Notes under the pieces: model-generated
What the model was told of the DNA's origin: nothing
The model's database searches: none
Seen by the model: the letters and a program-made list of their open reading frames with translations, nothing else
Translations under genes and position numbers: made by a program
Part shown: positions 18,276-21,753 of the stretch, in pieces
How the letters are laid out: every line of letters begins with the position of its first letter
Numbering within the stretch: position 1 is the stretch's first letter
Assembly: GCF_030019085.1 (NCBI RefSeq)
Contig: NZ_JASEFJ010000014.1
Coordinates: 1-49,576, forward strand
DNA: 49,576 nt
Direction: 5' to 3'
Origin: Methanoculleus sp.
Lineage (GTDB): Archaea; Halobacteriota; Methanomicrobia; Methanomicrobiales; Methanoculleaceae

Positions 18276-18689
18276 ATGGATGAGAGTGGATCTGGTGAAC
18301 CGGGAGGTGGTCGGTTCTCAGGGCATATGTCAGGCAGATATACAGGTCTTCTGATACTGGTGACCCTTGTGGTCCTCGCCACATCGGCAGGCTGCCTTAC
18401 CACCGCAATAGGGGAGGTGACCTACGACGGCGAGGCCCTGCAGATTGCTGTGGAGAACACCGGTGATCCAGTCGAGAACGCCGTGCTCCAGGTGAAGATC
18501 ATGGAGGTAGACCACTTTGAGCAGAAAGAGGTCTTCTCCGAAGCGCGGTATATCGATCTCGATACCGGGGAGAATAACTACTCGACCGAGGTAGACCTCC
18601 AGCCCGGCAGATACAGGGCCTTTCTGATCATATTCATCGGTAATGAGCGGAGCGCGTCTGTCATCCGCGACCTGGAGGTAACCGTCTGA
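18276..18689 (+). CDS. Predicted lipoprotein, small extracellular beta domain
   Basis: A membrane-anchored extracellular protein of unknown function. A hydrophobic signal (LLILVTLVVLATSAGC) ends in a lipobox-like sequence whose Cys would be the lipid-bound first residue. The mature part (about 95 residues) is one beta-rich domain with IAVENTGDPVENAVLQVKI and YSTEVDLQPGRYRAFLIIF, like small Ig-like domains. ATG at 18276 lies about 25-28 bases from the TATA box, which would give a leaderless message; GTG at 18267 and ATG at 18327 (just before the signal core) are alternatives. Its stop codon overlaps the proposed CTG start of the adenine deaminase gene, so the two form an operon. Confidence 0.7.
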   Translation: MDESGSGEPGGGRFSGHMSGRYTGLLILVTLVVLATSAGCLTTAIGEVTYDGEALQIAVENTGDPVENAVLQVKIMEVDHFEQKEVFSEARYIDLDTGENNYSTEVDLQPGRYRAFLIIFIGNERSASVIRDLEVTV

Positions 18690-20341
18690 CCCTTCCGGGA
18701 CTGGCAGCGGCGCGTGGACTCGAGCCTGCGGATGCCGTCTTTACCGGTGCCGAGGTCTTCAACCCCTTCTCCTCCACATTTGAGTGTGCAGACTTTGCGG
18801 TGAAAGACGGCTACATCATCGGTCTCGGGGACTATGAGGGGAAGAAAGAGCACGACCTCTCCGGCACCTATGTGGTGCCCGGGCTGATCGACGCCCACGT
18901 CCACATAGAGAGTTCGCTCCTTGCACCGGCGGAGTATGCGCGGGTTGTCCTTACACACGGCACAACGACGGTGATCGCCGATCCCCACGAGATAGCAAAC
19001 GTCTGCGGGGTGGCGGGTATCGAGTACATGCTTGCCGGTGGGGCCCGAACACCGCTCGACATCCTGATCATGCTCCCCTCCTGCGTCCCGGCAACACCCC
19101 ACGATATGGGCGGTGCCAGGCTTACAGCCGCCGACCTTGCCCGGTTCCGGGGGCGGGAGAGGGTCATAGGGCTTGCCGAGGTTATGAACGTCCCCGGCGT
19201 CCTGACCGGGGATGAAGATCTCCGGGCAAAGATGGATCTCTTTGAGGTTATCGACGGCCACGCGCCGTCCCTCTCCGGGAAGGACCTGAACGCCTACATC
19301 CATGCCGGCGTCCAGAGTGACCACGAGTCAACGACGCTTTCTGAGGCCCTTGAAAAACTCCTCCGGGGGATGTATGTCATGATCAGGGAGGGCTCGACAG
19401 AGCAGAACCTCCGCGACCTCCTGCCGCTCGTTAACAGGTGCACAGCGCCGCGGTGCTGTTTTGCAACCGATGATCGGCATGCCGGGACGCTTGTCCGGGA
19501 TGGACATATAGACGACTGTATCAGAAAAGCAACCACTTACGGTCTCGAGGTCGAATTGGCGCTCCGGATGGCGACCCTCTCCGCCGCTGAACGGTTCAGG
19601 CTCCATGACCGGGGCGCCATTGCACCAGGTAGGCTCGGTGACTTCTGCGTCATTGACGACCCCGACCGCTTCTGCGTCTTACGGACGTTCAAGCGCGGTG
19701 TTGAGGTGATCGACCGGGGTTATCGACCGCCAGAGGTTCCAGTGGCTCCAATGCACGCCCGCGTTCCGGTGCAAGATGAGATCCGGATAACCGGGGCGGG
19801 GGAGGCGCGTGTGATCGGGGTCGTGCCCGGGCATATCACAACACGCGACCTCCGCTGTCCGGTCGATGCCGCCGCGATCCCGGATACCGGGCGCGATATC
19901 CTGAAGGCGGTCGTCACCGACCGTTACCGCGGGCGCGGGTCTGGTGTGGGACTTGTCCATGGCCTCGGGTTACAGGAGGGAGCGATCGCCGGGTCGGTCT
20001 CCCACGACTCCCACAACATCGTCGCCGTCGGCGTCGATGACAGAGATATCATCCGTGCCATCGCCGAAGTGGTCAGGCTCGGCGGGGGGCTTGTGGCTGT
20101 CTCCGGAAACGAGGTGACAACGCTACCCCTGGAGTGTGCCGGACTGATGTCCGCCCGCCCCTACGATGAGGTTCTCCGGCGGTTGGCGGCAGTCGAGGCG
20201 CATGCGGGAGAACTTGGCGCGATCGAGAACCCTTTCATGTATCTATCGTTCCTGGCACTGACCGTCATCCCCGAACTCCGGGTCACGGAGCGGGGGGTCT
20301 TTGATGTCGGGGCGTTTTCGGACGTGCCGCTCTTCTGTTGA
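18686..20341 (+). CDS. ade: Adenine deaminase, probable CTG start
   Basis: Converts adenine to hypoxanthine and ammonia in purine salvage; an amidohydrolase with a binuclear metal site. Motifs: PGLIDAHVHIESSLL (metal-binding His pair), HGTTTVIADPHEIANVCG, the VIDGHAPSLSGKDLNAY region, and FATDDRHAGTLVRDGHIDD. The C-terminal domain (GLVHGLGLQEGAIAGSVSHD and HNIVAVGVDD) is the family's. Homologous sequence (ADAVFTGAEVFNPF) starts well before the first ordinary start, GTG at 18800. Upstream of that GTG the frame is open to a stop at 18644 but has no ATG, GTG or TTG. CTG at 18686 has GGAGGT six bases before it and overlaps the preceding stop as CTGA. This start gives 551 residues, usual for the family. 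The enzyme identity is firm; the start codon is inference. Confidence 0.9.
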   Translation: MTLPGLAAARGLEPADAVFTGAEVFNPFSSTFECADFAVKDGYIIGLGDYEGKKEHDLSGTYVVPGLIDAHVHIESSLLAPAEYARVVLTHGTTTVIADPHEIANVCGVAGIEYMLAGGARTPLDILIMLPSCVPATPHDMGGARLTAADLARFRGRERVIGLAEVMNVPGVLTGDEDLRAKMDLFEVIDGHAPSLSGKDLNAYIHAGVQSDHESTTLSEALEKLLRGMYVMIREGSTEQNLRDLLPLVNRCTAPRCCFATDDRHAGTLVRDGHIDDCIRKATTYGLEVELALRMATLSAAERFRLHDRGAIAPGRLGDFCVIDDPDRFCVLRTFKRGVEVIDRGYRPPEVPVAPMHARVPVQDEIRITGAGEARVIGVVPGHITTRDLRCPVDAAAIPDTGRDILKAVVTDRYRGRGSGVGLVHGLGLQEGAIAGSVSHDSHNIVAVGVDDRDIIRAIAEVVRLGGGLVAVSGNEVTTLPLECAGLMSARPYDEVLRRLAAVEAHAGELGAIENPFMYLSFLALTVIPELRVTERGVFDVGAFSDVPLFC

Positions 20342-20834: not shown

Positions 20835-21584
20835 TCACCCGAAGAACTCCACCGCCCCCGGTGCGAGAACCGCGATCAGAACCAGGATCAGGGGCTGGTG
20901 GAGGAAGTAAATGAGGAGCGAGTGCCGACCCAGGAACTCGAACGGTCGTGATACCGCCGGCCCCGGGTCGTTGACCCGAAACCCGCGCCTCCCATCCGTG
21001 TAGAATGTATGCCCGCAGGCCATCCCGGCAAGGACGATACCGAACCATGGAAACAGCGGGACGTAGTCCAGACTCGCAAAGGATGCCGGATGGATGCCGA
21101 GCCAGAGGAGAGGCCAGGGGCCGTTGACGAGAGTTACGGCGTAACCTGCGATGAAACATGCCACACTCGCAACGACGAGTCTCCTTGCGTCCATCCGGAC
21201 AAAGAGAGGTGCAAGCAGGATCGAGACCCCTATGAAGTGAAGGATCCCAAAGACGATGCAGACCGAGGGCAGGAGCAGCCAGGTTACACCGGTTATTACC
21301 AGACCGCAACCGAAGATGAGCAGACCGCGCCGGATGTATTTAAGCGCGAGATCACGCCCGGCGAGATGCCGCCTGGCGCGGGCATAACTGATCGTAAAGG
21401 AGAGACCTACCAGGAAGATGAAAGTCGATGCGGTCAGACGGGCGAGCAGCCAGAGAAACCCCCCGGAGACCTCAAGCGGCAGAACGCCGAAGAAGTTGAG
21501 GTCGAAGGCCGAATGGAAGATGATCATCGTCACCACGGCAACACCTCGAGCTAGATCGATCTCCCAGTAGCGCGTCCCGGGCAT
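20835..21584 (-). CDS. DUF1624 / HGSNAT-like membrane acyltransferase
   Basis: A 249-residue multi-pass protein of the DUF1624 family, related to the catalytic domain of heparan-alpha-glucosaminide N-acetyltransferase. The signature RYWEIDLARGVAVVTMIIFH with the family's DxxRG and His lies at about residues 5-24. Seven or so helices follow; FLVGLSFTISYARAR, GILHFIGVSILLAPLF and LIYFLHQPLILVLI are typical. Such proteins are thought to move acetyl groups across the membrane onto sugars; the acceptor here is unknown. I chose ATG at 21584 because GAGGGGG lies five bases upstream; a longer frame begins at 21623. It starts 10 bases after the zinc-ribbon gene. Confidence 0.85.
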   Translation of the reverse strand: MPGTRYWEIDLARGVAVVTMIIFHSAFDLNFFGVLPLEVSGGFLWLLARLTASTFIFLVGLSFTISYARARRHLAGRDLALKYIRRGLLIFGCGLVITGVTWLLLPSVCIVFGILHFIGVSILLAPLFVRMDARRLVVASVACFIAGYAVTLVNGPWPLLWLGIHPASFASLDYVPLFPWFGIVLAGMACGHTFYTDGRRGFRVNDPGPAVSRPFEFLGRHSLLIYFLHQPLILVLIAVLAPGAVEFFG

Positions 21585-21594
21585 GGCGTCCCCC

Positions 21595-21753
21595 TCAGAA
21601 GGATCTCCGCCGGACGGGCGCACCGCAATCAGGACAGGTCGTCATCGCGGTTATCTCGCGAAACACCTCTTCTGTCGGCTCGTTGTAGATCCGGGAGAAG
21701 CCGCACTGCCGACTGCACTCTATCACGATGAACTGGCTACAGATCCTGCCCAC
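21595..21753 (-). CDS. Small zinc-ribbon protein
   Basis: A 52-residue protein. The chain has two metal-knuckle pairs, ECSRQCGFSRIY (Cys-x3-Cys) and TTCPDCGAPVRRRSF (CxxC), separated by a short acidic helix with NEPTEEVFREI, the layout of a small zinc ribbon. Start is GTG at 21753 with GGTGGT upstream; TTG at 21759 is an alternative. The stop is 10 bases before the acyltransferase start, so they form an operon. Protein or nucleic-acid binding is possible; nothing more can be said. Confidence 0.65.
   Translation of the reverse strand: MGRICSQFIVIECSRQCGFSRIYNEPTEEVFREITAMTTCPDCGAPVRRRSF

Follow-up and report, generated by a model that had tools for sequence, protein, structure and literature searches.

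The adenine deaminase gene (ade) of Methanoculleus almost certainly starts, judging from the sequence, at a CUG codon (position 18686) that overlaps the stop codon of a preceding lipoprotein gene. We propose, with a probability of roughly 0.8, that the ribosome terminating on the lipoprotein gene reinitiates on this CUG with Met-tRNAi, which would yield a deaminase of 551 residues. The features on which this reading is based are located as follows in the window, i.e. the whole stretch of 49,576 nucleotides that was analysed:

18327..18689, + strand: lipoprotein gene encoding a signal peptide and the lipobox ATSAGC, an ORF whose TGA stop overlaps the CTG
18644..18646, + strand: in-frame TGA stop, which closes the ade frame upstream of the gene
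18674..18679, + strand: Shine-Dalgarno motif GGAGGT, within the lipoprotein gene and six bases upstream of the CTG
18686..18688, + strand: predicted CTG start codon of ade, inside the CTGA overlap; 33 of the 34 genus loci have CTG here and one has TTG
18686..20341, + strand: ade, predicted adenine deaminase of 551 residues (TIGR01178, PF01979, PF13382, 3nqb, structure model)
18800..18802, + strand: GTG (Val39), the first ordinary start-like codon of the ade frame, not the start

Reading of the open reading frames confirmed that the ade frame runs from the TGA at 18644 to the GTG at 18800 without any ATG, GTG or TTG, as the first-pass annotation had stated. The CTG at 18686 is separated from the GGAGGT by the six-base spacer AACCGT and shares bases with the TGA at 18687-18689 that ends the upstream lipoprotein ORF on the same strand (CTGA, 18686-18689); this arrangement, described earlier for the window, recurs in almost all loci of the genus (see below). 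A second in-frame CTG at 18701 (+15) occurs only in the window and its nearest relative. The lipoprotein/ade pair carries a stop-start overlap of the NTGA type, in which the start codon is CTG rather than a canonical one. The likeness to other junctions of the window that had been proposed extends to the NTGA layout and not to the codon, as the remaining plausible stop-start overlaps of the window are ATGA, GTGA or TTGA, and four further CTGA sites are not comparable, having a canonical start close by or involving unconvincing genes.

Most of the examined genomes of the order have the lipoprotein gene ahead of ade. The start of this gene is most likely ATG 18327, as the frame of several relatives opens directly at the corresponding ATG; GTG 18267 represents an alternative, less likely start. 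The encoded protein (GEVTY...LQPGxYK...VIRDLEV) matched no Pfam or NCBIfam family. Nearly all four-fold degenerate last codons of the lipoprotein gene (29 of 30) end in C, the base that opens the CTG. Other C-rich four-fold columns of the gene are equally constant, and wobble constancy therefore does not prove selection for this C. Downstream of ade, the window encodes a PF07786 (HGSNAT_cat) membrane protein (20835-21623, - strand) and a DUF2099 protein (PF09872; 21878-22735, + strand).

The ade product, of which a sole copy was found in the window's genome, is on sequence grounds an adenine deaminase. It contains the Pfam domains PF01979 and PF13382 and matches the equivalog TIGR01178 with 530.9 bits (cut-off 472.5) over profile positions 13-550 of 552, in agreement with the earlier view that 551 residues counted from the CTG fit the family. 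The metal-site and catalytic residues H71, H73, H101, E102, E165, H192, H213, E214, D262 and D263 are invariant across 33 sequences. Furthermore, the segment upstream of GTG 18800 evolves as protein. Among the genus members compared, codons 5-33 (from the conserved LAAARG to the +102 GTG) exhibit a pN/pS of 0.23, versus 0.34 and 0.32 in later stretches, and of 1.9-2.0 when read in the other two frames. Codons 2-5 after the CTG vary freely (pN/pS 0.80), as expected of a loose tip just past a start. The alignment of 3nqb (PDB; adenine deaminase 2) begins at residue 5 of the ade product, and an AlphaFold2 model built from 33 sequences (mean pLDDT 93.5) includes a helix (residues 6-9) and two strands (15-26 and 31-40) as part of the fold; pLDDT is ~97 from residue 11 onward. 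Codon constraint, alignment and model all bear out the homology upstream of GTG 18800 that the first-pass annotation had claimed. Constraint on the protein extends back as far as the CTG region, and the interval lacks a canonical start, as expected of a CUG-initiated gene.

Thirty-five genomes carry the genus code g1, and 33 of them hold the ade N-terminus, in 34 loci (bin G015 contains two copies). Comparison of the junction across these relatives, as proposed earlier, gave CTGA in 33 loci and TTGA in one (G027), and the core GAGGT with its six-base spacer is unchanged in all 34. Between the in-frame stop (or over the last 60 bases) and the conserved LAAARG, no ATG, GTG or TTG was found in the 34 loci except the TTG of G027. 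The in-frame stop upstream of the CTG is located at -12 in G009 and at -18 in G021 and G034; in these three genomes CTG is the best or only near-cognate codon, and in G034 it is the sole one remaining. No near-cognate codon other than CTG (or TTG) is common to the whole genus. The same arrangement in 32 further genomes rules out a sequencing error at the junction, including an indel that conceals an ATG, and assembly error is excluded as several of the genomes consist of a single contig or few contigs. An ATG shared by all relatives, with CTG confined to this one genome, is false within the genus and true only outside it. The two ade copies of G015 (C71 and C72; L138, L154) probably derive from a mixed bin, one being identical to G031 at the junction and the other grouping with G012. 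Disrupted ade genes, with one in-frame TGA in G042 (C1:733550-735184) and G039 (C1:2146848-2148481) and split into two frames in G004 (C2:382287-383786) and G039, appear from their sequences to reflect decay or sequence errors.

On a DNA tree of ade from which the start region was left out, two changes account for the CTG label: the first separates the genus from its sisters, and the second is the switch to TTG in G027. As this lone TTG is nested within the genus on supported branches, CTG is likely the ancestral state of the sampled genus. TTG, a recognised start, is the only substitution seen at the start codon within the genus. Elsewhere, g2 has TTG (TTGA, a few bases past a TAG), g19 GTG or ATG, and g20 ATG, and the usual codon in members of the order's other families is an ATG at most a few bases from the lipoprotein stop, TGATG and ATGA overlaps among them. 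A plausible path would begin with an NTGA-type start standing directly past a TAG; a small deletion in the spacer could then have put the TAG out of the lipoprotein frame, making the TGA of the NTGA the new stop, and TTG or GTG could finally have changed to CTG.

Three alternatives to a start at the CTG were considered. A start at the downstream GTG (+114, 18800; +102 in relatives) would make the protein 34-38 residues shorter. This GTG is the first start for an ORF caller restricted to ATG, GTG and TTG, and most genus members have a GTG at +102 or +114. Neither of the two is common to all genomes, however, and the equivalent of GTG 18800 is missing in G007, G008 and G009. Such a start would also remove a segment that is constrained as protein, homologous to 3nqb and, according to the model, comprises the first helix and two strands, and we regard an N-terminus at GTG 18800, which the first-pass annotation had raised, as extremely improbable. 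Scarcely more credible is a start at another nearby near-cognate codon such as the ATC at +3, which is present in 13 loci and missing in the window and most others, leaving CTG (or TTG) as the sole candidate shared by all. The overlap of the two frames is also compatible with a -1 frameshift from the lipoprotein gene into ade, -1 being the shift required, which would produce a lipoprotein-deaminase fusion. This too is highly unlikely: the last lipoprotein codons vary (GCC, CCC, GTC, TCC, CAC, ACC, TCT) with no conserved slippery site or shared heptamer, in G009, G021 and G034 the shared open stretch is no longer than a few codons, and the fusion would place a cytosolic enzyme behind a lipoprotein signal.

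Given a start at the CUG, we infer termination-reinitiation with the initiator tRNA rather than independent initiation. The ribosome finishing the lipoprotein would halt at the UGA of CUGA, be held after termination by the GGAGGU six bases upstream, step back one base and reinitiate on the CUG. Decoding would use the ordinary Met-tRNAi (anticodon CAU) with a C-U mismatch at the first position, and the 551-residue product probably begins with Met. Expression of ade would be modest or low and tied to that of the lipoprotein. Overlaps of the NTGA type are frequent in the nearest relative, with 149 ATGA, 50 GTGA and 16 TTGA cases in 1.6 Mb of its sequence; among the CTGA junctions of this sequence, only that of ade has both a coding-like extension and a long distance to the next canonical start. 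The same 1.6 Mb (~80% of the genome) encode two CAU tRNAs and no CAG tRNA, which argues against an initiator tRNA that reads CUG. For comparison with the anti-Shine-Dalgarno sequence, the window's assembly was searched for a 16S gene, with none found; in the nearest relative, a simple search for the tail of the 16S gave no usable match.

Alternatively, the CUG could be bound independently via its strong Shine-Dalgarno motif, the overlap with the lipoprotein stop being incidental. GGAGGT at six bases is indeed strong, stronger motifs of this kind tend to accompany non-AUG starts (PMC5622118), and the RNA at the junction is not more stable than shuffled sequences (z = 1.56). Against this stand the exact overlap retained genus-wide, the lipoprotein/ade adjacency kept by most of the order, and the coupling by termination-reinitiation of the overlapping gene pairs tested in Haloferax (PMC6728339), although one archaeal pair whose stop and start lie next to each other is reported to be uncoupled, as cited in the same paper. 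On balance we consider independent binding possible but rather unlikely, and favor reinitiation by the ribosome that has terminated on the lipoprotein gene. An extension of the reinitiation reading, in which selection keeps the CUG as it works only for ribosomes terminating on the lipoprotein and would hold the deaminase strictly proportional to it, appears unlikely and is offered as speculation.

Non-AUG starts and stop-start overlaps are known kinds of thing. CUG is, however, held to be almost unusable as a prokaryotic start codon. PMC11497404 quotes it at 0.024% of bacterial starts and gives its output in E. coli as 0.86% of that of AUG. Ancestral switches from AUG to CUG starts numbered only 2 of 61,358 in 36 groups of genomes (PMC5622118), and CUG was not enriched in mycobacterial selections (PMC4633059); the low output and the lack of enrichment speak against the proposed start. 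Fixation across a whole genus is noteworthy in view of this rarity, and no prior report of a CUG start of ade was found in a partial literature search. Widespread use of CTG starts is not supported by the window's genome, in which the pattern GGAGGT-N4-8-CTGA has 47 matches; 30 of these were made into loci and read, and only ade was convincing. A 124-residue ORF with a candidate CTGA start (C32:663) was among the 30. In addition, scanning the 1,457 genes predicted in G023 by hexamer score identified 34 upstream extensions including those of ade and a methylthiotransferase, and 18 others that were read resemble transposase fragments, frame breaks or antisense frames. One locus of that genome (G023:C1:973741-975066, - strand) has an N-terminus like isopropylmalate/citramalate synthase (VTVFDTTLRDGEQTPG) in a frame without a start; it adjoins a short direct repeat and an out-of-frame ATG and is probably a frame break in that genome.

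In 1.6 Mb of the nearest relative, only one gene other than ade clearly requires a non-canonical start. In G023 and the window's own genome, a UPF0004/radical-SAM methylthiotransferase has its conserved VYIETYGC upstream of every canonical start:

Methylthiotransferase: L280 (G000:C33:163354-164574); in G023, L279 and L245:4545-5768; further loci L281-L300

Its frame closes immediately upstream of the N-terminus that can be aligned; the candidate starts are an ATT or ATC preceded by AGGAG. Within the genus the start site reads ATC, ATT or ATA (AUA in one), and five loci have ATG at this codon or one close by, whereas no ATG or GTG was seen at the ade site. From sequence comparison, most genomes of the genus seem to start this gene at AUC or AUU, which suggests that weak starts are tolerated there. 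If selection does keep the CUG of ade as speculated above, then together with the AUC/AUU of the methylthiotransferase this would be a sign that start-codon selection in Methanoculleus is relaxed or specialised. ORF callers that accept only ATG, GTG and TTG would give ade 34-38 residues too short throughout the genus, without its first strands. Furthermore, a CUG start that persists over more than 30 diverged genomes represents a natural test of start-codon choice by the archaeal ribosome, and of whether this choice becomes less strict when the ribosome reinitiates at a stop codon.

Compared with TIGR01178 and 3nqb, the ade product agrees in its full-length match, the conserved HxH and other invariant residues and the N-terminal strands, and differs in the start codon only. 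The gene resembles the rare CUG-initiated genes of prokaryotes (PMC11497404) in that no canonical start is available and a Shine-Dalgarno motif precedes the CTG, but differs from them in being fixed across an archaeal genus and sited on the stop codon of the preceding gene. With the coupled overlapping pairs described in 2019 (PMC6728339), it shares the four-base stop-start overlap, the Shine-Dalgarno motif within the upstream gene and the conservation of the pair; in contrast to those pairs, the start here is CTG and the coupling of ade to the lipoprotein gene is a prediction.
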